Below, piece after piece: positions 264 through 26,619 of a DNA stretch of 37,810 nt. Location of the stretch: the NCBI GenBank assembly GCA_017617915.1, contig JAFZVH010000046.1, positions 1 to 37,810 of the forward strand, in the 5' to 3' direction. This stretch comes from Alphaproteobacteria bacterium. Its GTDB lineage: Bacteria > Pseudomonadota > Alphaproteobacteria > Rs-D84. The translations under genes and the position numbers were made by a program. The stretch's first letter is position 1. Each line of letters begins with the position of its first letter. The notes beneath the pieces were generated by a model. It made no database searches. It saw only the letters and a program-made list of their open reading frames with translations, and was not told the origin of the DNA.

Positions 264-292
264 TTGTCATATATTGCTTTTTTTGATAAAAT
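264..292 (+). promoter_or_regulatory. Sigma-70 promoter of the 882 aa Cys-rich gene
   Basis: TTGTCA (264-269), 17-base spacer, TAAAAT (287-292). Predicted transcription start is near 299, leaving a leader of about 22 bases that holds AGAAGGAAAGAG. It rules out a start codon at 264, which would lie inside the -35 box. Confidence 0.7.
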
Positions 293-320
293 AATCAAGA
301 TAGTAGAAGGAAAGAGAATT

Positions 321-2969
321 TTGAAAAATATTCTTGTGGTATTCTTGATATTTGTCGGCTGTTTGGATGCTGCGGTGGCCGCAACCGCGGGTGGTGTGCG
401 TTCGCGGACCTCTGCAACAACAGAACAAGCAACGCAAACGGCGCGTTCTGCGCGGCGCAGCACATCTGAAACTGCGGTTGTTTCGCGTGGGTCGGCGACC
501 CAAGTTGCACAGCCGACTGTTCAACAGCGTGGCCGCGCCACAACGCAAAATAATGTGGCCGCACAAACGGTGTCGCGTGGTCGTGCGGCAAAAACGCAAA
601 GTGTTGTGGGCAGTGGAACCAAGGTCGCAGCGGCGGCCCAGAATACACTTGTTGATGAAGAATGTTTGAACAAATTTAATGGATGTATGGATTCTTTTTG
701 CATGATGGACAACGCAAATGGCGGACGTTGTATGTGCAGTGATAAAAATTCTGAATATGATGCGATTTTGGCGGAAATTCAAAAATTAGATACCCAGAGT
801 TACGAAATGGCGACCGCTGGGGTTGAAAAGATTCAGATGGGCGAAGATGGCGAAGCGGTTATGGCCAAAGTAGACGCGATTACAAAAAGTGTCGCGGGCG
901 ATAAAAACCAATCAAAGCGCGATTTATTGGATTTTTCAAATTGGAATTCCTCGGTGGAATTTGATGATATGCAAGATATTTTTGCGACCGCGGATGATGA
1001 TATCAGCAAACAGACAGGTGACAAATTGTTTCGTGCTTCGGCGGATTTGTGCAATGCCCAGATTCCAGAATGTTCTGCGCATAAAACAATGATGGAATCG
1101 ATGTACAAGCAGCGCGTGCGTTCTGACTGTGCGGCATATGAAAACAGTTTGAAGCAACAGCGTACGCAAAGCGCACAAAAATTGGCGGCGGCACAAAATG
1201 CGATGCGTGAGGCAGCATTAGAACAGTATCGCAGTGCGAATAAGTATGATTTGGGGCAATGCACATTTCAATTCAAACAGTGTATGCAGACGACAGGTGG
1301 ATGTGGTGAAGATTTTTCTGGCTGTGTGACATCGGATTACATTTCAAAACAACTTAAAAAGAAAACAAGTCAAAAGACACAAATCCAAGGTGCGCTTACT
1401 GTGATAGAGATTGCGGCATCGACCTATGATTCGTTGGAATCGAAAAAGCCGTTATGTATGGATGTGACCAAGCAGTGCGTTGCTGTGCGCGACCAAGTCT
1501 GGGATACTTTCTTGCGTGAAGTTGCGCCAGAGTTGAAGTCTGCGGAGTTGATTGCCGAAAATAATGTTCGTTCGTCTTGCATTTCGAATATTTCGCAATG
1601 TTTTCAAAAGGCATGTAAAGACAATATAGACCCAAAGGACCCCGAAGGTTCTTATGATTTATGTTTGACGCGCCCTAATACTTTCCGGTCGTTGTGCAAG
1701 GTTGAAATAGAACCATGCGAGGCGATGGACAAAAAAATTATAGAATCCGTTTATGCGCGGTTGGCATCTATGCGTGTAGATTCTTGTACCAAGGCGTTCA
1801 AATCTTGTTTGCAAAACGAAGATAGATGTGGCGAAAACTATACGCAATGTGTTGGTTTGGATACAGATACGATAGTTGGTTTGTGTCCCGCGGAAACTCT
1901 GACGGCCTGTATGTACGAAGGGCAGGGCAAAAACGTTAAGAAGTCAGAAGAGATTTATGAAGAGTTGTTGAAAGTTGCCGAAGGCGTATTCTTGTCGATT
2001 GACAGTAATATGTTGACGCAGTGTCAAAAGGCGGCTGACGCGGCGATGGTCAAGGTTTGTGGTGATACAGCATCGTGTGACGCTTTTGCAGAGGACAGTG
2101 TTATAGGAACTGAATCTTTGATAAGTTATGAAGATGGCGAGGGCGGAACAGTTCTTGATGGTTTGGCGAATTTTAAATTGTTGACCTTGAATCAGAATGA
2201 AACGAATCAACAAGGCAATCAAAAAGTCACGTATGATATAGATTATGGTGGTTATAAAAGTATGTTTGATGCGCCAAGCTCAAAAAATGCGGTTACAGTG
2301 GCAAGAATTAAATCTGCGATGGACAGTTTGATAATGTCTGTTAAACAAAAACTGGATATCATTGCCAAAGATCCTGTTGTTGATGTGTGTCTGAATGGGC
2401 GTGAACAGACATGGCGGTACAGTGCGAACCGCGACGATGGGGAATATAATAAATTTACGCGATTTCCGCACTTGTTAGATACGTATGGTTCCAAGATTTT
2501 CGAATCTGCGGTAAGTCAGGCGACTGCAAATTATGAATCTAAATATAATGACTTTATCAGCGAAGCAGCCAAGGCGCGTGACCAAGATAAAAAGGCCGCA
2601 ATGTGTTTGTCTATTGCGTCTAATGTGGAAGACAAACAAATTAAAGAAGGTGATATCGAAATTGGATATGTCTTTGGCCATATAGATACTTCTGCAACTG
2701 GGTATTCAGAGTACGAATTGACGGTGCCAGGCGATGATGGTAAGCCAGTTGTTGTTACTAAGGTAAACAAGACGGCGATATACAGTCCAAGTACAGAGAT
2801 GTGTATCATTAAAACCGTAACGCAAAATTGCAAAGACCAGAGTATTTTGAGTTGTGTGGGGTTTAGTGGGTCTGGTACCGACAGAAAGTGCGATGGTTAT
2901 CTTTTGGTCTATAAGCCGTGCATCAAATGGCAAACCCCAGTTGAAACGACCCAGGAAATTCAAATGTAA
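321..2969 (+). CDS. Secreted Cys-rich repeat protein, 882 aa, TTG start
   Basis: Unrecognised secreted protein. From TTG 321 it begins with a clean signal peptide (KNILVVFLIFVGCLDAAVA), about 20 residues. This start is chosen because AGAAGGAAAGAG precedes it and because the longer frame begins inside the promoter. The mature N-terminus (about 20-110) is low complexity, rich in Ala, Thr, Arg and Gln with RGRA-type motifs. After that come repeated Cys modules: around 115-145 (CLNKFNGCMDSFC...), around 314-335 (CTFQFKQCMQTTGGCGEDF...C), and around 489-511 (CTKAFKSCLQNEDRCGENY...C), plus simpler pairs between them. The pattern recurs in the proteins at 3092, 7808 and 9108, so these four genes form a paralogous group. 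An oxidising compartment (periplasm or cell surface) and disulfide bonds are inferred. No enzyme motif seen. Confidence 0.8.
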   Translation: MKNILVVFLIFVGCLDAAVAATAGGVRSRTSATTEQATQTARSARRSTSETAVVSRGSATQVAQPTVQQRGRATTQNNVAAQTVSRGRAAKTQSVVGSGTKVAAAAQNTLVDEECLNKFNGCMDSFCMMDNANGGRCMCSDKNSEYDAILAEIQKLDTQSYEMATAGVEKIQMGEDGEAVMAKVDAITKSVAGDKNQSKRDLLDFSNWNSSVEFDDMQDIFATADDDISKQTGDKLFRASADLCNAQIPECSAHKTMMESMYKQRVRSDCAAYENSLKQQRTQSAQKLAAAQNAMREAALEQYRSANKYDLGQCTFQFKQCMQTTGGCGEDFSGCVTSDYISKQLKKKTSQKTQIQGALTVIEIAASTYDSLESKKPLCMDVTKQCVAVRDQVWDTFLREVAPELKSAELIAENNVRSSCISNISQCFQKACKDNIDPKDPEGSYDLCLTRPNTFRSLCKVEIEPCEAMDKKIIESVYARLASMRVDSCTKAFKSCLQNEDRCGENYTQCVGLDTDTIVGLCPAETLTACMYEGQGKNVKKSEEIYEELLKVAEGVFLSIDSNMLTQCQKAADAAMVKVCGDTASCDAFAEDSVIGTESLISYEDGEGGTVLDGLANFKLLTLNQNETNQQGNQKVTYDIDYGGYKSMFDAPSSKNAVTVARIKSAMDSLIMSVKQKLDIIAKDPVVDVCLNGREQTWRYSANRDDGEYNKFTRFPHLLDTYGSKIFESAVSQATANYESKYNDFISEAAKARDQDKKAAMCLSIASNVEDKQIKEGDIEIGYVFGHIDTSATGYSEYELTVPGDDGKPVVVTKVNKTAIYSPSTEMCIIKTVTQNCKDQSILSCVGFSGSGTDRKCDGYLLVYKPCIKWQTPVETTQEIQM

Positions 2970-2970
2970 C

Positions 2971-3026
2971 TAGTGTTAGTGGTTAGTGTAAGTGGTTAGG
3001 GGCGTTCGCACTGACCACTGCCCACT
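2971..3026. repeat. Imperfect inverted repeat with a dispersed GTTAGTGG-type motif
   Basis: The left arm AGTGTTAGTGGTTAGTG (2972-2988) pairs with CACTGACCACTGCCCACT (3009-3026) through about 15 pairs counting G-U, around a 20-base loop. Positions 2971-2993 match 15659-15681 at about 20 of 23 bases, so it belongs to a dispersed family. It may also end transcription of the upstream gene, though no T-run follows. Confidence 0.6.
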
Positions 3027-3036
3027 AAAAAATACT

Positions 3037-3064
3037 TTGTTATAATGTTTTTTTATGATATAAT
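3037..3064 (+). promoter_or_regulatory. Promoter of the 757 aa Cys-rich gene
   Basis: TTGTTA (3037-3042), 16-base spacer, TATAAT (3059-3064) with an upstream TGA giving an extended -10. Predicted start near 3071, and AGAAAGGAGAGG lies just before the ATG at 3092. Confidence 0.75.
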
Positions 3065-3091
3065 ACAAGGAATAGAAAGGAGAGGTCTTTC

Positions 3092-5365
3092 ATGCAAAAA
3101 TTGCTGAAAATAACGGGTTATAGTCTAATATTTGCTTGTGCATTTGCGGTTGCGGATGCGTCATGGGCGGCGGAAACTGCGCGCGGGGCATCGGCGCGGG
3201 GGCGCGACCGTGTCGCGGTTAGTACTGCAACATCGCGTATGCCGTCCATTCCAATTTTGCCGGTCAGTGCAACCGGAAATATCACGTTTTCACAAGATGT
3301 GATTGACCCTGAACCGACGCCAGAGCCAACCCCGGGGCCAACACCTGGGCCAACTCCGACACCTGTGCCTGTTTGTCCAGATGGCGGCGTGATGAATTCA
3401 ACCTATACGGTTCAAGATTGTATGAACGATGTTCTGGCTTGTGTCAACGGTGGTGCGCTGCCTAATGGAATAAATTCGCTCTATGACGAAGATGTGCGTA
3501 ATTCTATTATGAACGGCATGGGGCTGTGCATGGTTCAGGTTGACAAGTGCATTTCGACCGTTCGTGTAAATTGCCAAAACGTATACGAAAGCAGTGCCGA
3601 TGTTTGGATTGACTTTAATATTCGCAAAGTCCAACCATCGTACTATGCATTCGTTTTGCGTCAAACAGGTCTAACCCCGACCCAGGCGAAAAACACCTGC
3701 CTGTTGCTGGACAAGAACACATACGGTTCGTCCCTTGATGCAGTTGGCCAAGACGATTTGGTAACGGGTGAATACGGACGCGACGAAAGCGCATATAATC
3801 GAACAAAACACACCAAATTGGTAAAAAAGAATCCACAAGGCGTTGAAGTTAACAACAACGGTCAGTATGATGCAAAACGTGGATATTATGCGCGTTGGGA
3901 TGCGGAAAAGGCCGAATGCTTGTTGCGTGTCGCGGCATATAACAAAGACAAGCTTATCACAAATGAATGGCTGGACGTTTTTGGCGACAACAGACCGGCC
4001 GAAGTGTGGCAGGCCACAGGTTCTACATTTACATGCAATAAAGACCTGTTTGGTTTCGCGTTAAGAAACCAAACCAAGTCGATGGCATTGGTTGGTATTG
4101 GTGGTGGAACTGTTGTTGGTGGTGTGGTTGGTGCACTAACCGGCCACAAAGCAACCACAGGCTTTGATTGCAATGATGCAGAGTTGCGTAAAAAATTGTT
4201 AAAGGAAATAAAAGAAAAAAATAAGGCTGGTGCGCTGCGGGTGTATGTCAAAAACAGCACCTCCACAGATTCCCAAGGCAAAAGCACCTCCACAATTTCC
4301 CAAGGCATGAGCGAACTTACCGACACTCAATGCACAGCTATTATAGAGGCCTATGATAACTGGGTTCAACTTGAAGAAGAATATGCAAGATGCCAAGATA
4401 AATTTGCAACCGATAAATGTGTAACTTTCGTATTTGCGGATATTACAAATATCCAAGGCGCAACCGTATCGGATACAGAGCAGAAATACATTGAAGAAGC
4501 GATGAAAAAGTCAACCGACTGTCAAGCACGCGAGGCACCGACAATTGCGAATCTGTTAAAACAATGCTCGTTTAAAAATCTTCACACCGGCAATTTAAGT
4601 TGTGGAACAGAAGGGCAGCAATGTGTACCTTATGGTCAAATTGGTGCCGATGTACGCGCTATGCGGGATATTTTCGCCGACCTTAGCGTATTGAACGAAG
4701 GGCGGAAAGGTACCGTTTTGAAAAATACTTTGATTGGGGCGGGAATCGGCGCAGGTGTTGGTGGTGCTGCGACGGCGATTACCGCTTTTGTAGAAGGCAA
4801 CAATATCAACTGTCGCGTGGGTGATGATTTGAATCGCGTTGGGCTGAATAAATCCCATACTATTGACAGGTTGCGCGATTTCTACGTAAAGTGGGCATTG
4901 AACTTGCCGAATGCGATGACGCCGACCGCGGTTGTTACGAATTGCGAAAACTGGGCATTGTCCTGCAACCTGTACACAGATGCGAACGAATGCGCATCCG
5001 CGGTGTTCAACTATCGCCCAGGTGGCCTTACCACGACACAGTTGATAAGCAACCCTTGTCAGGTTTCGGGCAGTGCATGCATCGCGAATTTGACAACGGC
5101 GAACAATTATGGGCTGTGCCTGAATACTTTCCCAACGGTCAACAACTGTGACCAATGGCGGAACGAATGCGCAAAGTTCACAGATGTAACCTCTTGTGAT
5201 GCGGCACAGTTCTATTATGCCCCAATGAGTACGACTGTATCACGTGCGTGCGTATATTCTGTTGGTGGCAATACTTGTGGTATGAATTCGTCTGTTGCCG
5301 GCAATTATGTGAATATGTCGACCTGTTCATATGTTGCCGAACCGTCGGGTCCCGCAGTGCAGTAA
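3092..5365 (+). CDS. Secreted Cys-rich glycine-zipper protein, 757 aa
   Basis: Signal peptide 1-27 (ending SWAA), then a basic Ala/Arg-rich stretch and a Pro-rich linker (about 72-94, EPTPEPTPGPTP...). Cys pairs follow at 110-161. Two modules then repeat one design: a Cys-bearing segment, a glycine zipper, and a closing Cys. The first is FTCNKDLFGF at 313-322, the zipper GIGGGTVVGGVVGALTG at 335-351, and Cys 360. The second zipper is GAGIGAGVGGAATAI at 549-563 with Cys 574. The first module resembles residues 330-396 of the 430 aa protein at 7808. The C-terminus (617-745) contains two copies of a unit N-C-(E/D)-x-W-x3-C with TD and a later Y-x-P motif. Glycine zippers usually insert into or pack against membranes, so an envelope location is inferred. 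Own promoter and a strong ribosome binding site. Function unknown. Confidence 0.8.
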   Translation: MQKLLKITGYSLIFACAFAVADASWAAETARGASARGRDRVAVSTATSRMPSIPILPVSATGNITFSQDVIDPEPTPEPTPGPTPGPTPTPVPVCPDGGVMNSTYTVQDCMNDVLACVNGGALPNGINSLYDEDVRNSIMNGMGLCMVQVDKCISTVRVNCQNVYESSADVWIDFNIRKVQPSYYAFVLRQTGLTPTQAKNTCLLLDKNTYGSSLDAVGQDDLVTGEYGRDESAYNRTKHTKLVKKNPQGVEVNNNGQYDAKRGYYARWDAEKAECLLRVAAYNKDKLITNEWLDVFGDNRPAEVWQATGSTFTCNKDLFGFALRNQTKSMALVGIGGGTVVGGVVGALTGHKATTGFDCNDAELRKKLLKEIKEKNKAGALRVYVKNSTSTDSQGKSTSTISQGMSELTDTQCTAIIEAYDNWVQLEEEYARCQDKFATDKCVTFVFADITNIQGATVSDTEQKYIEEAMKKSTDCQAREAPTIANLLKQCSFKNLHTGNLSCGTEGQQCVPYGQIGADVRAMRDIFADLSVLNEGRKGTVLKNTLIGAGIGAGVGGAATAITAFVEGNNINCRVGDDLNRVGLNKSHTIDRLRDFYVKWALNLPNAMTPTAVVTNCENWALSCNLYTDANECASAVFNYRPGGLTTTQLISNPCQVSGSACIANLTTANNYGLCLNTFPTVNNCDQWRNECAKFTDVTSCDAAQFYYAPMSTTVSRACVYSVGGNTCGMNSSVAGNYVNMSTCSYVAEPSGPAVQ

Positions 5366-7494: not shown

Positions 7495-7836
7495 TTATTC
7501 ACCACCATCGGAGTCAGATGGCCCGCTTTTTGTATATCCTTGACCGGTCTCATTTGAATATCCGCCACTATCGTGGGTATTGCTACTCGCTCCGGTAAAT
7601 GCATCTGCGTGATCATCTGCATTCATGTGGGTGTTAGGCTCATTGCTACTCGCTCCGGTAAATGCATCTGCGTGATCATCTGCATTCATGTGGGTGTTAG
7701 GCTCATTGCTACTCGCTCCGTTAAATGTATCTGCATGCTCATCTGCTTTATTTATTGCCTCTTGGTCGCCGCTCGGGGTTGTTGGAGTACCTCCACCACC
7801 GCTGCCTTTACCCCCCACCATTCGCTTTTTTGCCAC
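7495..7836 (-). CDS. Repeat-containing tail ORF, probably the frameshifted end of the 430 aa gene
   Basis: 113 codons, from a Gly/Ser/Pro-rich start (GGKGSGGGGTPTTPSG) into a repetitive Asn/Asp/His/Ala-rich part built from a 21-residue unit (NEPNTHMNADDHADAFTGA plus SS), ending in a Gly/Ser/Asp-rich tail. Its 5' end overlaps the last 29 bases of the 430 aa gene in the +1 frame. Neither GTG 7836 nor ATG 7821 has a ribosome binding site. Removing one G from the G6 tract at 7811-7816 would join the two frames as NGGG-KGSGGGG without a break, so I read this as a C-terminal domain separated by a frameshift (phase variation, ribosomal slippage, decay or assembly error). As an independent gene it is poorly supported. 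Confidence 0.5.
   Translation of the reverse strand: MAKKRMVGGKGSGGGGTPTTPSGDQEAINKADEHADTFNGASSNEPNTHMNADDHADAFTGASSNEPNTHMNADDHADAFTGASSNTHDSGGYSNETGQGYTKSGPSDSDGGE
7579..7750. repeat. 63-bp tandem repeat, two full copies and a degenerate third
   Basis: Copies begin at 7579, 7642 and 7705, exactly 63 bases apart. The first two are near identical and the third diverges after about 35 bases. The period is a multiple of three and keeps the reading frame, so copy-number change would alter tail length without breaking it. Confidence 0.9.
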
Positions 7837-9100
7837 TGCTCAAAAATGTTTGTTCTTTTTTTTCTTCGTTCCAACTGCATTTGCCGCCTTTCCAAGTGCC
7901 GCCAGCATCTTTGCAGTCGTTTTTTGCCTCTTTCTTTTCTTTTGTGGCTTTCCATCCGTTTAGGCTGGCACCAGATGACCACAAACCTGCCGCTGTTCCA
8001 AAGCCTGCACCCAGTGCCGCACCGGTTGCAGATTGCTGTTCGCGGGTGATGCGGTATGCGTTTTCTTTGTATGTTGTTACATCAACGCCGAACCAATCGG
8101 GTGTGCATTGAAATTTATTACCGGCATAAAGTTTCTTTGACGCAAGCGGTTTTTCAAAATCGCTTGACCAGAAATTCACAGTATAAACACAGTCTAGGGT
8201 GCGTTCGTCAAACATTGCCCCAAGGTCTTCGCAGGTGTGGCGCATCAGATTCCGCAGGGCGTACAGACGCTGTTCGTCTTTCTTTACCTGTCCAACTTTG
8301 ATGGTGCGTAATTCACTGAATACATCCATGAAACGCGCGGCCAAACCGCTGTCTTGTTCGCGGCACTCTTTGGCAATATTGGCGCACGCTGAAATCGCCT
8401 TGTCTTCTTGCGCCTTGGACAGGCAATTAGTAAGTGTGCCGCCGCAGGCTTCGGATATACAATTTGCATAGTTCGTACCGCAATTGATAACAGACTGATA
8501 ATAAGATAAACGCAAATTTGCATCACGATCCGCCAAAATTTCTGGCGCAAGCGCCGCAAACTCCGTCGCTGTACAGTTTGTTGTGTTGCGGCATAAATCT
8601 AGTTTCGAACCCCAGATTGTTGTGTTGTCTGTGGCGCAATCGGAAAAATCGTCACCGCATTTTTCTTGCATACAGGCGCGCAGACTGTTATTACAATTTG
8701 CCGCACCCGATGGTGTGGGATTGTTTGATGATGACCCACCATTGGAATTATTATAGGTAGCCATGTATTCTTGAATGGCGTTTGCCGAACCAGGGTCAGA
8801 ATTCAGCAAACTGGGACTTGAAATTTCCGCCATAGCATTGGCAAATGTCGTAGATTTATTGTCAACAATAATGGGTTCTTCTGGCATTTCTTCGATTTCT
8901 TCTTCAGTGTTCAAATCGTTTGAATTTGTCGCAGGTGTCTGAGTTATTGTGGCTGCGCGATTTTGTACGCGTGCCGCCGCCGCGCGATTTCCTGCTGTAG
9001 GGCGATTTACCACCGCTGCGCTTGCATCCAGTATAACCGGCAGTGTTGAAATAATGCCGATACAAGCATATTTATAAAAAAATCTAAACACTTGTTTCAT
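7808..9100 (-). CDS. Secreted Cys-rich glycine-zipper protein, 430 aa
   Basis: Signal peptide about 1-29 (ending DASAA), then an Arg/Ala-rich segment (NRAAAARVQNRAA) and an acidic Ser/Asn-rich linker. Cys modules: 136-155 (CNNSLRACMQEKCGDDFSDC) and 207-226 (CGTNYANCISEACGGTLTNC), the clearest form of the family motif C-x6-C-x4-C-G-x5-C. Residues 330-396 hold FQCTPDWFGV, a glycine zipper GAALGAGFGTAAG and a closing Cys, matching the 757 aa protein. The gene is 7 bases downstream of the 297 aa gene and is cotranscribed with it. It stops at TAA 7810-7808 directly after a G6 tract; see the tail ORF at 7495. Localisation at the periplasm or surface is inferred from the signal peptide and Cys content. 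Function unknown. Confidence 0.8.
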   Translation of the reverse strand: MKQVFRFFYKYACIGIISTLPVILDASAAVVNRPTAGNRAAAARVQNRAATITQTPATNSNDLNTEEEIEEMPEEPIIVDNKSTTFANAMAEISSPSLLNSDPGSANAIQEYMATYNNSNGGSSSNNPTPSGAANCNNSLRACMQEKCGDDFSDCATDNTTIWGSKLDLCRNTTNCTATEFAALAPEILADRDANLRLSYYQSVINCGTNYANCISEACGGTLTNCLSKAQEDKAISACANIAKECREQDSGLAARFMDVFSELRTIKVGQVKKDEQRLYALRNLMRHTCEDLGAMFDERTLDCVYTVNFWSSDFEKPLASKKLYAGNKFQCTPDWFGVDVTTYKENAYRITREQQSATGAALGAGFGTAAGLWSSGASLNGWKATKEKKEAKNDCKDAGGTWKGGKCSWNEEKKEQTFLSSGKKANGGG

Positions 9101-9107
9101 AGTGGTT

Positions 9108-10001
9108 TTACCTTGTGCCTTGGTTGGTGGAGGGTATATTTATAACTGTTCCTTTTGGTACCTTGATATTACCTGTCATGCCGTCGCATGCGGTTTTGTA
9201 ATGGGCGCAGAGTAATTCAGCAATTTTATCGTTAAAGGCACCCGTAAGAGTGTTTTTGCATTCTGTAAAATCCGTCTTTTTTTGACAGTTTGAAACAACG
9301 TTGTTCCATCTGTTTTTGCGTTCTGTTTGAATGTCTTGAACCAGTTCCCTAAGTTGTGTTTGTGCATTTGCAACACTCTTGTTGCGAGAGGTTTTGGTTT
9401 CGTTTTTTACCTTGTTGACATATTCATCGCAGCCCGTTGCCGCGGTTGCGCATTCTGCAATGATTCTGTCTAAATCTGAATCTTGGGTACACATTTCATA
9501 CCGGCGACCGCATTTTGTTTCGATGCAATTTTCCAATGTTTGTGTGCACTTTAGTTCAGAAGGTTTTTGTGTGGCGGTTGCTATGGCCTTGTCGGTTTGA
9601 ACGGTTGCACCGGCGGCCTTGCAAGATTGTTCTATCAATTTATCGTAAATATTTGAAACATCATCGGCGGTGCAATTACCGACCTTTTTAATGCATTCTG
9701 TGGTTGCCCAAATATAGCGTTTCCCAGGGTCAGATGGCGCAACGGCCAATTCTTTGTCGGTAAGAGCGTACTTGGAAGATTGCCCAACACTGATGTTTTT
9801 TAACCCTTGTTGTTTGGGCGGGGTGCCGGCCAGCGAGGTTCCGCAATATTGACAACGCGCCGCAGGATTCATGCCTATATTTATCGCGCAGGCGGAATCC
9901 AGACAACGTGTAATATTGGTCTGGGAACATTTTGGGGCAGCCGCGCAAACTGTTGGAATTACGCCAAAAAATACTGTCAAAAACAGATTTGAATGTTTCA
10001 T
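9108..10001 (-). CDS. Secreted Cys-rich protein, 297 aa, first gene of a two-gene operon
   Basis: Signal peptide about 1-21 (MKHSNLFLTVFFGVIPTVCAA). It carries about 20 Cys in the mature part, including the family motif CTQTLENCIETKCGRRYEMC (about residues 153-172) and an N-terminal cluster CSQTNITRCLDSAC with CQYC. It lacks the glycine zipper and the Arg-rich N-terminus of its larger relatives. A helical, Gln/Lys/Arg-rich middle (about 200-245) may form a coiled coil. AGGCAGGG precedes ATG 10001. The 430 aa gene follows after 7 bases, so the products probably work together. No known enzyme family recognised. Confidence 0.8.
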   Translation of the reverse strand: MKHSNLFLTVFFGVIPTVCAAAPKCSQTNITRCLDSACAINIGMNPAARCQYCGTSLAGTPPKQQGLKNISVGQSSKYALTDKELAVAPSDPGKRYIWATTECIKKVGNCTADDVSNIYDKLIEQSCKAAGATVQTDKAIATATQKPSELKCTQTLENCIETKCGRRYEMCTQDSDLDRIIAECATAATGCDEYVNKVKNETKTSRNKSVANAQTQLRELVQDIQTERKNRWNNVVSNCQKKTDFTECKNTLTGAFNDKIAELLCAHYKTACDGMTGNIKVPKGTVINIPSTNQGTR

Positions 10002-10709: not shown

Positions 10710-10739
10710 GTCGGGATCAACAGTCCCGACTTGTTTTTT
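10710..10739 (+). terminator. Intrinsic terminator
   Basis: GTCGGGA (10710-10716) pairs with TCCCGAC (10724-10730) over a 7-base loop, followed by TTGTTTTTT. Confidence 0.9.
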
Positions 10740-10743
10740 CCCC

Positions 10744-10773
10744 TAGACTTGGTGTGGCGGATTGTGTTAAAAT
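10744..10773 (+). promoter_or_regulatory. Possible promoter of the 1108 aa gene
   Basis: TAAAAT (10768-10773) with only a weak -35 (TAGACT, 10744-10749, 18-base spacer). Start would be near 10780, giving a 13-base leader with TAGGA next to ATG 10793. Confidence 0.4.
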
Positions 10774-10792: not shown

Positions 10793-13700
10793 ATGAATTT
10801 CGCCAAAACAAGTGTTTTTACATTGTGTTTTGCGCCGCTGGCGTTGCATGCGGCCGATGATTTTACAATGTCTGCGCAAGTGTTGGCGGCGGCGCGTGCC
10901 GGTAATGCACGTCAAGTGCAGATTCTTGTCAACAGTGGCGCCAATGTCAATTTTGTTGATGCAACTGGTTTATCTTTGGTTTGTACTGCACTTATGAACA
11001 ATGATATGACGGCGGTACAAATATTGCAATCTTATGGTGCAGATTCTTCCACTTGTGATACCCAAATAAAGACATACAAGGCGAAAAATACACCACAACA
11101 GACAGGAGGTTTTTTTAGTGGTCTGTCTACAACCCAAGGTATGGTTTTGACTGGGGCGGTTGCCGCAGCGGCGATTGGTGGTGTCGTTTTATTGACAGAT
11201 GTATTTGACCATGACAACGATAATAATACCACTGGGGGTTCTTCGGGCGGCGGGTCGTCTGGTGGTGGGTCTTCAACAACCAGTGGCACTGCGTGGTCGG
11301 CGGGCGCGTTGCCGTATGGTCCATCTATGGTGAATGCTGCGCAAGAAAGCGCCAATTATGCGAATAATTTGGCATATTATGCACCATCTGACGAAGAGAG
11401 TATTTTGTATCAGAATTTTTATCTGATGAACCATAATCCAAATTTGAACTATAACTATTTATTGTTGATGCGTGGCTATTCGCCGCTGGCGCGCGGGTAT
11501 TTGGGGCAAAGAACTTTACGAAATCCGACCAGTCATGCGCCATTGGCGTTACGTGATTCTAATGGTGATTGGCTATATTCTTATGGGGCGTGGTCTGTTC
11601 AAGGTGGGCGACCGGTGAATGTTGCGCTGGTGACCGCGAATGGAATAAACGCTGCGGCCGATACATCGTTGGAAAATAAATTTTTGGTTTGGGCGGGCGT
11701 AAATACTGATGGCACACCCAGCCCAGCAAGCGCAGAAACGATTTACAGCAAGTATTACAATAATTTGCTGACCCCAGATGGTGCCAACGAGCCAGAAATC
11801 GAAGAAGATACCAGTTTCGATTTGTCCGGTTCTGGAACGGCGATACATAATACTGCGGCATCAGACAGTGATAATATGTTGGCAAAGATTGTCGGTGGTA
11901 ATGATGCGGGCTATGCAAATGCAGATTTCTTTGGTTTTATGCCGAATGGACAAATGACGATATATCGTACCGGTGGCGGGGCAGGGGCCACAGATTATAA
12001 AAATTATTCTGCAATTTTGGATGCCGCAGTTCGAAAACTTGATTTGGCGAATGGGCGCAGCAAAGTTTCGGTAATTGCAAATCTGGACGTGATTGAGCCA
12101 TTGCACGAAACGGAAGCCAAGACAATAAATGATTTGCTGTCCGTTGCGGCGACTGACTATAAAACAACTTTCGCGGAATTTGTTGGTGCGGCATATGGTA
12201 CAAATGATATAAATGATTTGCCTGCGGACAAAGCGACGAGTTTTTTTAATAATCTGGGTTCCTTGTATACTCCACTAACTGTGTTTTCAACAGGCGCGTC
12301 CAAGACGGATAGTACTTATTCTGGCGCATATAAGCTTGCGACCTTTGAAAATGCGGCGCCATTGGTTTATGCTAATTCAAATCATTTGTTTATGTCGGTT
12401 GTCGCGGTTGGTTCTTTGACGCCAAACGGAACAATTGCGGCAAATACTGCCGGGAACCAAAATCAGTATGAACTGTCAAAATGGCAAGACACCGCGTCAG
12501 GAAACTATTATAAATCGCGTGTTTGCGGAATTGCGGGCGCCGGCAGTGCAAACATTGACCCTTGGTGTTTTGCGGCGGTTGGTTTGACGGATGAAATGGC
12601 AACTGCGGCGGCGGCAGGTGCGGCGGGTGTGTTGATGTCTGCGTTTGATTATATGACCCCCCAAGAAATATTTACACTTTTGGCACTGACGGCGGACGGG
12701 CCTTTGATGGCGCGCACTACGGCGGGCGCATCGCTTACATCCACAGAATTGCTAAGTTATTTACAGGGACAATATGATATGCCGAACGAATATCAGTTCC
12801 GTATAGATAACGGTGAAGACTATATGGATGTGTTTAAGGAAGTTTACGGCTATGGTGTTATAAACCTTGAACGCGCGACAACACCTGGAACAAATTTGTT
12901 TTTCTATGATGGAACAAAAATTATATCGACATCAGGCAACGCCTATTGGCGTGCGGCGGCAAATACAGGTTTGCGTACATCATCTGCCTTGAATATAGGA
13001 CGCGTTGCGGTTGACACTGCGGCATATGATGTTTTGGAAAGCGTTGATGGTTCAATGAGTTTGCCGCGCATTTGGAAAAACAGTTTTACCTTGGGTGATG
13101 ATGGGCGTCATGCGTTGTATATGGGCGATGTCTTGGGCGATTTGAAAACACGTGCGGCGGATGATGATACAGTACAGTTTGGTGATTTTGCGTTTAGTTT
13201 GACGCGCAGCCCGCGTGCATACAATGATGCGTTTGGTGGGCTTGATAATATGCGCCTTAGTTATACTAATGCAAATTGGAATTTGGCGGTAGATTACCAA
13301 CATTATTTGACGAACGGTGAATCGCGGTTCTATGGAATGTCGAATCCTGTTTTGAATTTGGCATCGAATGCAATTTCTGGCGGTGCTAATTACAGAGCAG
13401 GTAAATGGTCCTTTGGTGGTCGCGCGTTTTCTGGTGTAATTACTGACGAAGGATTGTTGCAGACCGATCCAACAATTTTATCAGAATACGAACCGATGCG
13501 TTTGGGCTTGATGTCTGGTGCGGCGGCGGAACTGGGATGGCGTGATGCGAATTTTGGTTTGATGACTTCGTTTGGTGCAGTGTGTGAAAATAATACAGTT
13601 CTTGGTGCGTATGCAACGGGTCTGATGGGAATAGATGCGACAGATACGAATTATGTTGATATAGACGCGTTCTGGCGGCCGACCGATTCAGTTCGGTTGC

Positions 13701-14119
13701 GCGCGCGCGCGACCTTTGCGCGCAGTGATGTTGATATGCGTTATGGTACCCAGATGGCGTTGTCGCCACTTGCTTCAAACGCGTTTGCGTTGGGCGCAGA
13801 TATCGCGAATTGGTCGTTTGGTGCATCAATGCCTTTGGCGGTGACAAACGGTGCGGCGCATATGGCGTATGCAGATTATGAAATAATAACAGATGAAAAC
13901 GGACATTATGATTTGGCGATTCGTGATATGGGAACGCAACGAATCGATATGGCGGCGCATTCGCGTGAAGTTCGATTGAACGCAATATATCGTCATCGCT
14001 TTGGTGAATTCACAGATGGTGCACTTGGGTTTATCTATCGCATTCATCCGAATCATACTTCAGAGTTTGGAAACGAATCGGTATTCATGATGAAGCTGAC
14101 ACACGCACTTGGAATTTAA
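10793..14119 (+). CDS. Ankyrin + inactive S8-like passenger + beta-barrel autotransporter-like protein
   Basis: 1108 aa. Signal peptide 1-20 (ends LALHA). Residues ~25-90 are two ankyrin-type repeats (AARAGNARQVQILVNSGANV; NNDMTAVQILQSYGAD). A hydrophobic Gly/Ala segment (117-135) and a Gly/Ser linker (148-162) follow. Residues ~240-700 follow the S8 subtilase layout: strand VNVALVTANGI (276-286), VVAVGSLTPNGTIA (536-549), the Cys pair CGI...WCFAAVG (578-598), the helix EMATAAAAGAAGVLM (601-615) and YGYGVINLERA (686-696). The catalytic Asp, His and Ser positions are not conserved: the GTSMA motif reads TDEMA here. The last ~330 residues alternate like a beta-barrel (WNLAVDYQHYL, WSFGGRAFSG, VRLRARATFA), fitting an outer-membrane autotransporter domain, although the last residue is Ile and not Phe. 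Probably a surface-exposed pseudo-protease; role unknown. Confidence 0.75.
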   Translation: MNFAKTSVFTLCFAPLALHAADDFTMSAQVLAAARAGNARQVQILVNSGANVNFVDATGLSLVCTALMNNDMTAVQILQSYGADSSTCDTQIKTYKAKNTPQQTGGFFSGLSTTQGMVLTGAVAAAAIGGVVLLTDVFDHDNDNNTTGGSSGGGSSGGGSSTTSGTAWSAGALPYGPSMVNAAQESANYANNLAYYAPSDEESILYQNFYLMNHNPNLNYNYLLLMRGYSPLARGYLGQRTLRNPTSHAPLALRDSNGDWLYSYGAWSVQGGRPVNVALVTANGINAAADTSLENKFLVWAGVNTDGTPSPASAETIYSKYYNNLLTPDGANEPEIEEDTSFDLSGSGTAIHNTAASDSDNMLAKIVGGNDAGYANADFFGFMPNGQMTIYRTGGGAGATDYKNYSAILDAAVRKLDLANGRSKVSVIANLDVIEPLHETEAKTINDLLSVAATDYKTTFAEFVGAAYGTNDINDLPADKATSFFNNLGSLYTPLTVFSTGASKTDSTYSGAYKLATFENAAPLVYANSNHLFMSVVAVGSLTPNGTIAANTAGNQNQYELSKWQDTASGNYYKSRVCGIAGAGSANIDPWCFAAVGLTDEMATAAAAGAAGVLMSAFDYMTPQEIFTLLALTADGPLMARTTAGASLTSTELLSYLQGQYDMPNEYQFRIDNGEDYMDVFKEVYGYGVINLERATTPGTNLFFYDGTKIISTSGNAYWRAAANTGLRTSSALNIGRVAVDTAAYDVLESVDGSMSLPRIWKNSFTLGDDGRHALYMGDVLGDLKTRAADDDTVQFGDFAFSLTRSPRAYNDAFGGLDNMRLSYTNANWNLAVDYQHYLTNGESRFYGMSNPVLNLASNAISGGANYRAGKWSFGGRAFSGVITDEGLLQTDPTILSEYEPMRLGLMSGAAAELGWRDANFGLMTSFGAVCENNTVLGAYATGLMGIDATDTNYVDIDAFWRPTDSVRLRARATFARSDVDMRYGTQMALSPLASNAFALGADIANWSFGASMPLAVTNGAAHMAYADYEIITDENGHYDLAIRDMGTQRIDMAAHSREVRLNAIYRHRFGEFTDGALGFIYRIHPNHTSEFGNESVFMMKLTHALGI

Positions 14120-14132
14120 GCAGATAAAAAAC

Positions 14133-14160
14133 GGGCGCGTTTGCGCCCATTTATTTTTTT
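14133..14160. terminator. Bidirectional terminator between convergent genes
   Basis: GGGCGC-GTTT-GCGCCC (14133-14148) has ATTTATTTTTTT on the + side and GTTTTTTATC on the - side, so it can end both the 1108 aa gene and the DUF1015 gene. Confidence 0.85.
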
Positions 14161-15754: not shown

Positions 15755-16834
15755 TTATCTCTTTATCGGGGCGTCCAGAACCGTTTCATCGCGTATCATA
15801 TCCAGTGGATAGAACTGGAACGGAACAGTTTCAAAGTCTATGCCGCGGATGTCTATGTGTCGCAATGTACGGTTATACATAGTGTGATAATATATCTGGC
15901 CATGCGTTATGTCGGTTGCAACTGTCCACTGGGTCGCCGAAGGCATATCGAAACTGGGCGTTTGGGTCGGCTGGGTCGTGCCGAATGGAACATCCATATT
16001 GTTCAATATATGAAACGCTTGCTTTATTGTTTGGTCGCCTGTCGCTTGCGGAATCGCAAAGTCGCGGAAAAATGTCGCGCGAACGAATCGCGACGGCGAA
16101 GAAAAGTCGCCCGGCAATCCCATCAGGCCTGTGCCATGACTTAGTGATTGCAGTTTTAATGGCCCGAATTTGACCGGCTGGGTCGTGCCAGATTTCAGGT
16201 TGATATAGTTGTTCAGGTTCGTCAAATGCCATGGCAGGCCCGGCGCGTTCGCGATAACTCCGTTCGGGTTGTCGTAAAATGTCGCAACACCGTCGATGAT
16301 TTCCATAACTACTTGGCGCCCCGACGGTTCGGTAATGCGCCAATGCACAGTCGATGCAGTTGGGTCTATGTTGATGATGCGGACACCGTCGATTGCGTCT
16401 TTGAGTTGGTCTATGGTTGAAAATTGCGACAGTATCCATGACACGACCTGAAAGTCCGCCAATGATATGTCGCGCGTGGCGGCGGAATAGGGCCGATATT
16501 TACCAAAGCGCGGGAAATAGAACAGTTCCGCGGACAGGCCGACTTCGTTTGTGCCGTCAACGATGAATTCTGGGCGCTGCATCCCAAGGCCAACAAAGCC
16601 GTATTTTGCGGTGAACTTTACGCCATTTTGTGTGCCGTCTGGCAACAGTGACTGTTCAACGTGGCCGCGCGGAACAATGACATAGATATTGTTCATTTCG
16701 GACCCTGACCAATCGACAGTGCGCGCAACAACGACCGATTTATCAAGCGCCTGCATAGTGATGCCTGTACAGGCGGACGCAGAATTTATGGCACCAATTA
16801 TGGCGCAAATTGCAAAGATAGAAATGTGTTTCAT
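15755..16834 (-). CDS. Choloylglycine hydrolase / penicillin V acylase family amidase, secreted
   Basis: 359 aa. Signal peptide 1-21 (MKHISIFAI...NSASA), so the mature enzyme would begin with Cys22, the Ntn-hydrolase nucleophile. The other family residues are visible: Arg38 and Asp41 (VVARTVDW), the Asn of DGTNEVGLSAELFYF, the Asn of VIANAPGLPWHLTNLNNY, and the Arg of SPSRFVRATFF. This family hydrolyses linear amides such as conjugated bile salts, penicillin V or acyl-homoserine lactones; the substrate here cannot be decided from sequence. The Sec signal places it in the periplasm, as for Gram-negative members. AAAGGAAAA precedes ATG 16834. A longer frame to 17056 is excluded because it reads antisense through tRNA-Gln. 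Monocistronic, with its own terminator. Confidence 0.9.
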   Translation of the reverse strand: MKHISIFAICAIIGAINSASACTGITMQALDKSVVVARTVDWSGSEMNNIYVIVPRGHVEQSLLPDGTQNGVKFTAKYGFVGLGMQRPEFIVDGTNEVGLSAELFYFPRFGKYRPYSAATRDISLADFQVVSWILSQFSTIDQLKDAIDGVRIINIDPTASTVHWRITEPSGRQVVMEIIDGVATFYDNPNGVIANAPGLPWHLTNLNNYINLKSGTTQPVKFGPLKLQSLSHGTGLMGLPGDFSSPSRFVRATFFRDFAIPQATGDQTIKQAFHILNNMDVPFGTTQPTQTPSFDMPSATQWTVATDITHGQIYYHTMYNRTLRHIDIRGIDFETVPFQFYPLDMIRDETVLDAPIKR

Positions 16835-16864
16835 TGGGTTTTCCTTTGGTTTGGTGATGCCTGA

Positions 16865-16870
16865 ATTATA
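16865..16870 (-). promoter_or_regulatory. -10 box of the amidase gene
   Basis: TATAAT on the - strand, about 31 bases upstream of ATG 16834. No good -35 is visible at 16-18 bases. Confidence 0.5.
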
Positions 16871-16921
16871 CGCGGTTTTGCGCCAAAAAGGCATAGGAAC
16901 GAATGCGCCCGCATTTTTTAT

Positions 16922-16950
16922 TTGCAAAAGCCGAAAGCGCGTTTTATAAT
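16922..16950 (+). promoter_or_regulatory. Promoter of tRNA-Gln
   Basis: TTGCAA (16922-16927), 17-base spacer, TATAAT (16945-16950). Start near 16957, four bases before the tRNA. Confidence 0.8.
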
Positions 16951-16960
16951 GGCGACCACT

Positions 16961-17034
16961 TGGGGCATAGTTTAATGGTAGAACTCCGGACTCTGACTCC
17001 GTCAGTGTTGGTTCGAATCCAGCTGCCCCAACCA
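16961..17034 (+). tRNA. tRNA-Gln (CTG anticodon)
   Basis: A full cloverleaf: acceptor TGGGGCA/TGCCCCA with discriminator A and an encoded CCA (17032-17034), D arm GTTT/GAAC, anticodon loop CTCTGAC (anticodon CTG), T arm GTTGG-TTCGAAT-CCAGC. The outer pair of the anticodon stem is C-T, a mismatch; E. coli tRNA-Gln has C-G there. The gene reads CAG codons. Its 3' end is duplicated downstream (see 17202). Confidence 0.95.
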
Positions 17035-17035
17035 A

Positions 17036-17077
17036 GATAAAATAAAAATGTCCCAACGGGGCATTTTTATTTTATCA
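17036..17077. terminator. tRNA-Gln terminator, long AT-rich palindrome
   Basis: GATAAAAATAAAAATG pairs with CATTTTTATTTTATC (one bulged A) around TCCCAACGGGG. A near-identical copy of the hairpin, including the CAACCAA before it, is at 17862-17906. Confidence 0.85.
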
Positions 17078-19768: not shown

Positions 19769-20524
19769 ATGAGGCATTTTATATCAAATTTTGTTTGTTT
19801 ATTTATTCCGCGCAAATCCCTGCGGGACAAGGTGAGGACGCTGTTGTACTATCGACCACAAGTGCGCGAATACAGGCGTTTTGTGCGCGACTATGCGCGG
19901 CGGCACAATATGAAACGGTGCAAAATGCAAATCAAAGTTGGCTGGATTTGCTGTAATTTAATCGTAATTTTGAATAATAAATGTGTGTTTAAGTTTCCAC
20001 TGAAAAGTGATGGACGGGAATTGGCAACGCGCGAAAAACGAATAACTGATGCTTTGCGCCCGATTTCGCCGATTAAAATTCCAGAAATGGAAATTATTCC
20101 TTATAAAGATATCGTTGTTAAGAAGTATGAATTTGCGCGCGGAACTTTGTTTTCTGAACTGTCGCCGTCCGATGTGGCACAGCATTCCCAACATCTGGCG
20201 CAACAAATTGCAAACTTTCTTTATGTGTTGGCCAAGGCGGATCCAAAAGAACTGCGTGATTTGAAACAGAAACCGAACGAGGCGCCAAAGTTTTTATATG
20301 GGTGGAATCATGGCGATATTTGGCAGAATTTTATGGTTGACCCCAAGACTTTCGATATTACTTATTTTATAGATTGGGAATCGGCAAATTTTGGTTCACT
20401 GTATCCTTGTTTGTATTCTGCGGACTATCACTGGGTTCGGTTTGATTATCGTGGCTTGGCGATTTACATTATGGCCGAATATGCGAAACTCTATTATAAC
20501 GGCGCGAGTGTAAAAGCCAAATGA
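19769..20524 (+). CDS. Aminoglycoside-phosphotransferase-like kinase, 251 aa
   Basis: Kinase fold of the APH/choline kinase type. Lys74 in CVFKFP is the likely ATP-binding Lys, and the Glu in TREKRITDAL fits the helix-C Glu. The catalytic loop reads HGDIWQN (H181, D183, N187) and the metal-binding segment reads FIDWE (D202). The small size and the N-terminal MRHFISNFVCLFIPRKSLRDK, which resembles the first residues of some LPS/capsule enzymes, suggest a sugar kinase for surface glycans rather than an antibiotic resistance enzyme; this is inference. The next gene overlaps by ATGA (20521-20524) and is a paralogue (about 45% identical over the shared core by eye), so the two are translationally coupled. 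Confidence 0.75.
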   Translation: MRHFISNFVCLFIPRKSLRDKVRTLLYYRPQVREYRRFVRDYARRHNMKRCKMQIKVGWICCNLIVILNNKCVFKFPLKSDGRELATREKRITDALRPISPIKIPEMEIIPYKDIVVKKYEFARGTLFSELSPSDVAQHSQHLAQQIANFLYVLAKADPKELRDLKQKPNEAPKFLYGWNHGDIWQNFMVDPKTFDITYFIDWESANFGSLYPCLYSADYHWVRFDYRGLAIYIMAEYAKLYYNGASVKAK

Positions 20525-21228
20525 AAAAGGTTCTTGTGAATGTTTTATGTATGTTTGTACCAACACGCCAACGGCGCAAGGCATTGCGTATGGAATTGAC
20601 GCACCCGATTCGCCGGTGGACACGTTTTGCCAAGTCTTTCAGTAATATGGCGCATCCACGCGCAAGATATACTTATGGTTTTCGTTGTATAAATTTTGTT
20701 GTAACGGTTGATGATAAGTTTGTGTTTAAATTTCCGCTAAATGGTGATGGTGTGGCGGTTGCGCGGCGCGAAAAGGCCATAACTGATGCTTTGCGTGCGA
20801 TTTCACCGATTAAGATTCCACAAATGGAAATATTGAATTTTGATGGTCTTGCGGTACGCAAATACGAGTGTATAAATGGTATAGGTTTTCATTCTTTGAC
20901 CCGCGAAACGCAAACTGCACACGCAGATAAAATTGCGCGGCAACTTGCGCGGTTTCTGTACATTGTTGGGCGCGCCGATCCGATAGAGATTCGTAATATG
21001 AAAGACAAAAAATCTGATAAACCTGGGTTGATGTATGGATGGAATCAGAATGACCTGTGGGATAATTTTATACTGAATCCAAAAACGTTTGATATCGTTG
21101 GAATTATAGATTGGGAAGAGGCGGTTTTTGGCGATTTCTCGCGCAGTTTTACAAGTGGTATCGGTAATGGTGTTATCAAAAGTGCACTGTTGCGAGAGTA
21201 TTTAAAATTATATTTGCGCTATAAATAA
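20521..21228 (+). CDS. Paralogous kinase-like protein with altered catalytic loop, 235 aa
   Basis: Tandem duplicate of the preceding gene: shared blocks FVFKFPLNGDG, REKAITDALRAISPIKIP and NPKTFDI...IIDWEE. Where the first protein has HGDIWQN, this one has QNDLWDN (residues 176-182): the catalytic Asp and the Asn stay, but His and Gly are replaced. It may be a weak kinase, one with another substrate, or a regulatory partner of the first. Its start overlaps the first gene's stop (ATGA). A gap of 106 bases without a clear terminator separates it from the next gene. Confidence 0.75.
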   Translation: MKKVLVNVLCMFVPTRQRRKALRMELTHPIRRWTRFAKSFSNMAHPRARYTYGFRCINFVVTVDDKFVFKFPLNGDGVAVARREKAITDALRAISPIKIPQMEILNFDGLAVRKYECINGIGFHSLTRETQTAHADKIARQLARFLYIVGRADPIEIRNMKDKKSDKPGLMYGWNQNDLWDNFILNPKTFDIVGIIDWEEAVFGDFSRSFTSGIGNGVIKSALLREYLKLYLRYK

Positions 21229-21334: not shown

Positions 21335-24300
21335 ATGAAAAAATTCCATAGAGTTCACAATATTGTTTTGGGTGTATCGGTTTTGCCGGCACTGTTGATT
21401 ATGCCTGCGATGGGCGCAGCACCGAATTTGGATGGTGATGCATTTTTGTTCGGTGATGTAAATTGGACAAATCAAAACGTTGCATATGGTCAGGCAGCCT
21501 TTGGCGGACGCCGTATGAATGTTTGGAATGGGCAGCAGTATCAGAATGATTTCCCTCAGTATCAAATGGCGGGTCGTTCTTTGACAATGTCTAGCAGTGA
21601 TATTTATGTTGGACCTGTGACGTTGACCTTGCGTGAATTGGGCGCAGACGAAGCGTTCAAATTTAATTACCAATGGATAGTTAATAATGACCCAGAAACA
21701 GATATAGATTTAGCATCTGATGAATGGGCGGGTGTTAAGTGGAATGATAGCTATCATTCGGTAACAGACGAAGAAACAGGTGATGTATTATCTGTTGGTG
21801 TGTATGAAAAGCTGAGTAGTGTAATTGGCGCTTCAAATGCGAATTATACAGCAAACCCTGTGTTTGTTATGTCGCGGCGTGATGATGATGTAGCGGCGGG
21901 TTCAATGTCCTTTACTGGTACAACGGCGATGATAGACGGTTCGACCATAAATGCTGACTCTATTTCTGTTACGGATGGATCGGTACTTACAATCGCAAAC
22001 CAAGATCACAGCAAACTTGGTGCATTTTTGCCGGGTGATATAGATTCGGATGGTGTTACGACACTGAATGCAAGGACAATAGATATTGACGGTTCGCGGA
22101 TATTGGTAAATGAAGACGCGTCTTTGACGGTTAATGCCACAGAAAGAGCAACTTTCGAAAATGGTGTTACAAATGGTTATGGCGGTATGTTGTATAATAT
22201 GGGTAATGTTACGATTTCCAATGCAACATTTGATAACAATCATACATCTACCGAAGGGTATGGTGGCGCTGTATTTAACGGAATGGGGTTATTGACATTA
22301 AATAATGTAACTTTTGAAAATAATGGTGCCGATTATGATGGTGGGGCCATATCAAGTGCTACCTCTAATATTAGAGCAGACGCAAAACCCGATGATTTTA
22401 CAGCAGATGTTATAAATGAAACAACCGTAAGGGCTTACTGGGCGTCCAAGAATGGATTCGACGCCAAAAATAAAATGATCATTACAGATTCTACCTTTGA
22501 TCATAATACGGTGAATTTGTATTCTGGGGGGGCATTAGGGGTTTATTCTGATGCCTTTATCCAAGGTTCGCATTTTACTGATAACAATGCAGGTGGACAT
22601 ACCCCGGCCGATTCGACCGATGGTGGTGGTGCAATATATGCGGGCGGTTGGGCTCGCCTTGACATTAATGATAGCGATTTTTCGGATAATAGTTCCAATT
22701 ATGGTGGCGCCATAGCGACAACGCGTGCGGGAAAAGAGAATGGGATATATCTGCATATATCAAATTCTGAATTTATACACAATACCGCAACTGTTGCGGG
22801 TGGTGCGATTGCCAATGATTTTGCGGATGCTATATTTACAGATGTTAAATTTGCTGACAACACAGCGAATGATATGGGGGGCGCGATATACAACAAGAAT
22901 GGTTTAACCATTGCGGCGCGGAATAAAGATGTAACCTTTGCAAACAATACCGCAAATGGCAGTGCGAATGATATCTATAATGCGGGCAGTTTGGCATTGG
23001 ATGCGTCGGCAGGTCGTTTGATTTCTTTGGCGGGCGGTATTGATGGTGTAAGTGGTACATTGGATATTGTCGGCGATGGAACAGTTGATATTGCAAATGC
23101 ATTGAAAAACCAAACGGTTACTCAAAGTGCAGGCGAATTGCATTTGCGCGATGTTGATTTAACTGGTTCGACGATTGCTGTTGGCAAAAACGCAACAATC
23201 AATACAATTGATAATGCGGTAAATGATTACTCTTCGTTTATTACACTGGCGGATGGCGCAAGCGTTCGCGCGGATGCAACGGATACCGCAGCGGATAAAT
23301 TTGCACTGGCGACGGATAAAACGGTCAATTTAACCAGTTTGAATTTGCTGTCCGATTTCACAGGCGAAAAAATAAATCAACTGACATCTTCTGGTAAGAT
23401 TGCGGTCGCAGACACTGTTAAGACTTATACTTCAACAACCAAGTACACAGTTGCGGGCTCAAGTGATAACAGTGGAAACATTACCATTACAAGTGCGGGT
23501 ACAGGTGGTTTGTTCGCGGCGGCGGATGATACAACCACAGGCACGCGTGAAGCAGTTACTTATTCTGTAACGGCGGACGATACGACGGTGGCATCGGCGG
23601 CTGAAATTAAAAATGCAGATTTAATTGTCAAAGGTAATGGTGCAACCAATCAGGTGTCTTTGGATGCTAATCTGACGGTTGGCGATACATCCAGTTTGAC
23701 AATCGAAGATGCAAGTTTCGCGGGTGCTGGCACTATTGAAAACAAAAGTGGCGGTGTTTTGACTATTTTGGATTCGATAATTGCGACAAATATCAATAAC
23801 GCAGGTGTGCTGTATTCAGATCCGACAACATATTCTGCTGTTGTATCTAACAGTGGAACAGCGTCATTTGATGCGGATACATTTGATACAACCGCAACAT
23901 TAAACAACACCGGCATAGTAAATCTGTTAAATGGTGTTATCTTTAATGATGGTGCAAAGATTACCGGTAATGGAGTGACCAATTTAGTCAGTGGGGAAAC
24001 GGTGTTCAATAATACTGTGTCGTCAAATACAGTTAAATTGGCAAAAGGTGCGGACTTTTCGGGTATATTGACTGGTACAGGTGCATTGGATACGCGCAAT
24101 GACACAATTGATGAAATCACTGGTGGTGTTGCGGGTGGTAACCTGTACGTTGATGCCAAGTTAAGGGGCGTAACAGGCGCAATCGACACTTTGGCCAGTT
24201 CAACAGGCGCGACCATCAAGGAAATCAATATTACTGATTCTGAATACGGCACAAATGGCTCGTATGCTCTGACAGTTGGTGATGCTTTGTTGGCCAACGA

Positions 24301-26497: not shown

Positions 26498-26521
26498 TTA
26501 TAGAAAATTTGAATTCGAATT

Positions 26522-26552
26522 GTGTGGGCGCAAGTGCGCCCACATATTTTTT
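26522..26552 (+). terminator. Intrinsic terminator after the YadA-type gene
   Basis: GTGGGCGC-AAGT-GCGCCCAC (26524-26543) followed by ATATTTTTT. Confidence 0.9.
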
Positions 26553-26564
26553 AGAATTTTATTC

Positions 26565-26593
26565 TTGTGTTATAGGCGCGTGCAGTGTATCAT
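26565..26593 (+). promoter_or_regulatory. Promoter of the 1265 aa autotransporter gene
   Basis: TTGTGT (26565-26570), 17-base spacer, TATCAT (26588-26593). Start near 26600, with AGAGAGGGA before TTG 26620. Confidence 0.55.
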
Positions 26594-26619
26594 ATTACTT
26601 GTTAAAGAGAGGGAATAAA

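Follow-up and report, generated by a model that had tools for sequence, protein, structure and literature searches.

The window analysed here, a 37,810-nucleotide stretch from an alphaproteobacterial genome (0.73 Mb, 88% complete), harbours at 10793–14119 an uninterrupted reading frame on the forward strand that encodes a protein of 1108 aa. This protein runs from a signal peptide through two ankyrin repeats, a hydrophobic helix and a Gly/Ser linker into a region derived from subtilisin-type (S8) proteases, and ends in a strand-rich C-terminal domain. The gene is flanked by terminator-like hairpins and preceded by a promoter-like site, and is therefore probably transcribed alone. All features are listed in Table 1.

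Table 1. Features of the S8-derived gene and its surroundings in the window.
Feature	Position	Strand	Basis or remark
Exported Cys-rich proteins, cluster	264..5365	+	no Pfam match
Exported Cys-rich proteins, cluster	7808..10001	-	no Pfam match
Conserved neighbour, exported Cys-rich protein, 430 aa, divergent	7808..9100	-	synteny
Conserved neighbour, exported Cys-rich protein, 297 aa, divergent	9108..10001	-	synteny
Terminator-like hairpin	10710..10730		
Promoter-like site TAGACT-18-TAAAAT with TG extension, just 5′ of the start	10744..10773	+	consensus match only
Whole gene, 1108 aa, probably monocistronic	10793..14119	+	terminator-like sites at both flanks
Signal peptide, residues 1–21 (MNFAKTSVFTLCFAPLALHAA)	10793..10855	+	by eye; same pattern in family members
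Two ankyrin repeats, residues 22–95, cysteine pair C64/C88	10856..11077	+	Pfam matches, alignments
Ala/Gly-rich hydrophobic helix, residues 110–139	11120..11209	+	best 19-mer hydropathy 2.17; present in active relatives too
Gly/Ser/Asp/Asn linker, residues 140–168	11210..11296	+	sequence
Pseudo-S8 domain, residues ~220–702	11450..12898	+	alignments, profile comparison
Catalytic Asp position = Thr281 (VTANG); 78 T, 5 S, 1 N among 84	11633..11635	+	alignment
Catalytic His position = Ser359 (DSDNMLAKI); 15 different residues, His in 0/84	11867..11869	+	alignment
Oxyanion Asn position = Ala502 (STGA); Asn in 1/84, others E, A, G etc.	12296..12298	+	alignment
Cys578 to Cys592, 100% conserved in the family; lines up with the pair in active relatives and with the Ssp Cys288–Cys295 disulfide	12524..12568	+	alignment
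Catalytic Ser position = Glu601 (TDEMA); Glu 62/84, Ser 0/84	12593..12595	+	alignment
Probable beta-barrel, C-terminal, residues 740–1108	13010..14116	+	homology to C-terminal domain of S8 relatives
Bidirectional terminator-like hairpin	14129..14152	.	
Choloylglycine hydrolase family protein	15755..17056	-	CBAH, 7.5e-59; apparent signal peptide further in than listed start
Two adjacent similar APH-type phosphotransferase-like genes	19769..21228	+	
1720-aa trimeric-autotransporter-like surface protein	21335..26497	+	Chlamydia PMP-type repeat and YadA-like membrane anchor
1302-aa exported ORF, directly 3′ of the YadA-like gene	26509..30417	+	repeated GGAIYNSGT-type motifs; start codon unsure

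The N-terminus resembles a Sec signal peptide when judged by eye, and the protein is accordingly predicted to be exported. The ankyrin repeats reported in the initial annotation could be confirmed by way of relatives. The match of the window protein itself, at about residues 32–86, is weak (Ank_2, E = 0.0015, short of the curated cut-off), whereas close relatives exceed the Ank_4 cut-off (23.6 and 22.8 bits against 22.7) and their repeats align column for column with those of the window protein. Sub-threshold matches of the window protein to a DDE transposase and to AnkY/AnkH, located in the barrel and the ankyrin part, were dismissed as noise or generic ankyrin similarity.

In a Sec-exported outer-membrane protein a hydrophobic helix ahead of the passenger is unusual. 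Here a helix of transmembrane strength separates the signal peptide from the passenger, also in the active relatives. Two related S8 proteins, L169 and L171, instead display a lipobox-like Cys followed by a run of Gly at the place where the others have the helix and the Gly linker. N-terminal lipidation keeps NalP and SphB1 on the cell surface (PMC9289746), and by this analogy, together with the lipobox-like Cys, the helix may, as a guess, be a tether equivalent to such lipidation.

The initial annotation had read the motif order of S8 autotransporter proteases in the central region. The window protein falls below the Pfam threshold for PF00082 (13.0 bits against 21.8, residues 489–642; 20.4 bits in the genome scan), so that descent was tested through three more distant relatives, L067, L068 and L069, which belong to two other families of the same order and are hereafter called intermediates. 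Unlike the window protein they pass the cut-off at 58–86 bits (3.5e-24, 1.2e-15 and 1.8e-21, respectively), and they align through every motif that had been named, which bears the motif order out. A profile of 50 S8 domains of the family compared by hhalign with intact S8 paralogues of ~620 aa gave a probability of 98.1 (E 1.1e-13), and compared with the intermediates 97.5, while an unrelated control profile gave 0.1 and so ruled out a chance match as the source of the motif order. Active, intermediate and dead proteins all have a CG..C cysteine pair immediately ahead of the APG segment; the pair corresponds to the Cys288–Cys295 disulfide at the last strand of Ssp (PMC9977779). Profile similarity, this pair and the phylogenetic tree described below together show the S8 descent of the family, and a subtilisin-like fold of the region would follow from homology. 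AlphaFold models built from six sequences stayed at very low confidence, with pLDDT 31.0 for the full protein and 31.3 for residues 170–722. An unrelated exported protein that acquired S8-like motifs by convergence would explain why the window protein alone is under the Pfam threshold and why the profile of 50 pseudo-S8 domains matched no S8 structure in the PDB. Such an origin is nevertheless extremely improbable, because intact, intermediate and dead proteins form an unbroken series whose members share the ankyrin cysteine pair, the CG..C pair, an SAF.YM helix and a YG.G.INLERA segment.

The four catalytic sites were placed by aligning the family through the intermediates, the His site, in a gapped region, being the least certain of the four. 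The segments VTANG, SDNMLAKI and TDEMA, in which the triad had been said to be replaced, fell at the Asp, His and Ser positions, and STGA at that of the oxyanion Asn. Where an active subtilase has its Asp/His/Ser triad and oxyanion Asn, the window protein thus carries T281, S359, A502 and E601. The inspection of these sites in homologues that the annotation had recommended covered 84 full-length family members from 13 genera and clearly favours a dead protease: Asp, His and the nucleophile Ser were each found in 0/84, and the oxyanion Asn in 1/84. Across the whole S8 region of these 84 members no Ser or His was conserved at 90% or above, which excludes a relocated classical triad for the family.

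The protein might still be an enzyme by relocated or unorthodox catalysis, for instance based on Glu, Thr or Cys, or by a sedolisin-like rearrangement. The residues that now occupy former catalytic positions are non-random (Glu601 in 62/84, Thr281 in 78/84), and D343, D378, D635, E519, K365, T393 and T633 are conserved at 90% or above. However, no Ser or His is conserved, some members have L, M, Q, D, V, A or G in place of Glu601, 15 different residues occur in the His column, and the oxyanion Asn has been lost. The two invariant Cys are those of the ancestral disulfide. We consider such an enzyme very improbable.

The intermediates have lost only part of the catalytic machinery. Phe or Tyr takes the place of His (SFATQ, RYMTQ) and Ala or Gly that of Ser (GSAAA, GAGAA), while the oxyanion Asn is kept in all three (STGND, SAGNE) and Asp in two (IVDTAG), L068 having a Gly in its place (IGTEG). 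All three also carry a big insert directly before the former catalytic Ser motif, of more than 100 residues in L069 and more than 300 in L067 and L068. Catalytically intact proteins of the ankyrin-helix-S8-barrel layout were found in three other alphaproteobacterial families (L163, L165 and L168; L167 is 5′-truncated), with PF00082 matches of 7.8e-28 to 1e-46. The ankyrin fusion is therefore not unique to the dead protein and predates the loss of catalysis.

In a maximum-likelihood tree built with the catalytic columns removed, the dead family came out as a single clade (100/100), with a long branch (2.11) leading to it, and was united with the intermediates at 96/92. Since intact, half-dead and dead relatives are all present, an order of losses can be read. 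The ancestor would have been an ankyrin-bearing S8 autotransporter-like protease. On the most parsimonious reading, the loss of His and Ser preceded the divergence of the order's three families and fell in the ancestor common to the window's family and its two sister families, whereas Asp and the oxyanion Asn disappeared thereafter in the ancestor of the window's family. This order requires two losses of Asp, the second in L068.

The barrel-type C-terminus of the initial annotation stood up by homology: the domain is homologous to that of the intermediates (97.7), whose domain in turn shares homology with the one in the active S8 proteins (100), making a beta-barrel probable. Searches with PF03797 at E up to 10 gave no match in the window protein and eight relatives, so that the domain is not recognised as a type Va translocator barrel; no Pfam family above cut-off matched it or the corresponding domains of the active relatives, and barrel profiles matched no solved barrel in the PDB. 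The low-confidence model (pLDDT 31) shows the domain as strand-rich. In subtilisin-like autotransporters of group 15 a beta-helix of ~200 aa follows the protease domain (PMC9289746). By inspection, the S8 region is here separated from the first barrel strands by only ~40 residues, and no Ssp-like beta-helix stalk was recognised in the pseudoprotease.

Within the genus the gene is present as one copy in 57 of 59 genomes, one of these copies being a fragment at a contig end, and is absent from two. The family also occurs in the other genera searched within the same taxonomic family, with open frames of ~1080–1410 aa, and one genome (G068) contains a C-terminal fragment of a further distant relative. 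No match was found in the searched genomes of three other families of the order (f2, f4 and f5), and no relatives in viral contigs. The named relatives are metagenome-assembled genomes (MAGs), two of them from sheep colon, and as the genomes are mostly MAGs the absences are soft.

Selection was estimated by the Nei-Gojobori method in nine close pairs, several with high dS, so that the values are approximate. The dN/dS ratio was 0.04–0.12 for the S8 region, 0.035–0.15 for the barrel and, where computable, 0.01–0.06 for the ankyrin part. Together with the intact reading frames these low ratios rule out a decaying pseudogene. Lost catalytic residues combined with retained purifying selection mark the protein, by sequence, as a pseudoprotease. 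Genomes below about 1 Mb rarely retain idle 3.3-kb genes, and the preservation of a dead protease in 57/59 genomes thus argues for an important non-catalytic task.

Mean pairwise identity varied along the protein and was highest in the ankyrin part (0.72), followed by the helix (0.63), the barrel (0.48) and the two S8 halves (0.41 and 0.49). An insert of 57–142 residues after residue ~396 is present in 63/84 members and absent from 21/84, including the window clade. Both the insert and the passenger's identity far below that of the ankyrin part would suit a purely structural role as surface coat or adhesin, in which the S8 shell carries variable loops and inserts facing the host or phages. Yet no non-synonymous excess was seen, the dN/dS of the S8 region being as low as that of the barrel, and exposure at the cell surface is itself a prediction. 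A purely structural role is possible but on the whole unlikely. The strong conservation of ankyrin and helix suggests a constant cellular partner for these parts and an S8 part that meets changing surroundings.

As for partners, the sole candidates in the neighbourhood are the two divergent genes of the conserved Cys-rich pair. The pair was found near the pseudoprotease in nearly every locus of the genus with enough upstream sequence and in three sister-genus genomes (G208, G199 and G196). Deeper branches that were sampled lacked it, save for a weaker match to one of the two in G218. Among the other neighbours in Table 1, CBAH relatives occur near the pseudoprotease in six other loci.

A partner elsewhere in the genome could be the active S8 autotransporter of ~620 aa, which the dead protein might bind, chaperone, inhibit or compete with. 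The C. difficile pseudoproteases CspA and CspC work beside the active CspB (PMC6636752), and an intact S8 paralogue of related layout is carried by 35/59 genomes of the genus. The window genome and many genomes more than 90% complete nevertheless carry the dead protein without this paralogue, and no second S8 protein was found in the sister-family genomes searched. Dependence on the paralogue is thus unsupported by co-occurrence, and a regulatory partnership appears improbable. The paralogues (L071–L090, ~605–706 aa) have a very short spacing of the Asp and His motifs, with D..HG within ~10 residues.

The loss of all catalytic residues in a gene under tight selection argues for a role other than cutting, most likely binding. 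We therefore favour, as reasonably probable, an exported outer-membrane pseudoprotease that descended from an ankyrin-bearing S8 autotransporter-like protease and whose core acts without chemistry, most likely as a binding module or scaffold. The C-terminal barrel would anchor the S8 core in the outer membrane, where the former protease domain, tied by its old disulfide, may bind a partner or ligand or serve as a scaffold facing a varying environment, while the ankyrin/helix module probably touches a constant partner within the bacterium. More tentatively, and with less than even confidence, the protein may be seen as an ancient, family-wide and near-essential surface pseudoprotease, retained by almost all members of a gut lineage with reduced genomes, whose S8 core is a receptor or binding module, the ankyrin/helix part serving for transmission or as an anchor in the periplasm.

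Pseudoenzymes are easily overlooked, since they fall below annotation thresholds. The novelty here is a pseudoprotease branch within the subtilisin-type autotransporters that is fixed and under selection, with an ankyrin fusion older than the catalytic loss, and a literature search of partial coverage returned no description of a pseudo-S8 autotransporter. For the Rs-D84/Enterousia lineage, which may include this genome, a recent study describes numerous hypothetical proteins bound to the membrane that stand in for the usual uptake systems (PMC12306168).

The closest known systems include the subtilisin-like autotransporters of group 15 (Ssp, 8E7F; EprS, NalP, SphB1 and fusolisin), in which an exported S8 passenger likewise stands ahead of a C-terminal membrane domain. 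When the active relatives were compared with the PDB, Ssp scored best (6.4e-27 and 5.8e-32); it has the same disulfide adjoining the last strand before Ser (PMC9977779). The window's family differs from this group in the loss of all catalytic residues, in the N-terminal ankyrin repeats and hydrophobic helix, and in the unrecognised beta-helix stalk and the barrel without a PF03797 match. L163, L165 and L168 agree with the window protein in domain order, in the two ankyrin cysteines, the hydrophobic helix and the Gly-rich linker, and in the CG..C pair, and their barrel is related, but they differ in their intact Asp/His/Asn/Ser and strong PF00082 matches. L067, L068 and L069 have the architecture of the window protein with His and Ser gone, but unlike the window protein all keep Asn, two keep Asp, and their S8 domain is recognised by Pfam. 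The ~620-aa S8 autotransporter of the same genus has a signal peptide, a hydrophobic segment, a linker, a related S8 core and a barrel-like end; it differs by its intact triad, a short Cys-flanked segment in place of the ankyrin repeats, and its more limited occurrence. Finally, CspA and CspC of Clostridioides difficile are S8 domains in which catalytic residues have been substituted and whose essential role is non-catalytic (PMC6636752), although they are soluble spore proteins with two catalytic residues changed and with neither ankyrin repeats nor barrel. If the favoured reading is true, the pseudoprotease described here would be a Gram-negative, membrane-bound counterpart of the germinant-sensing pseudoprotease CspC.
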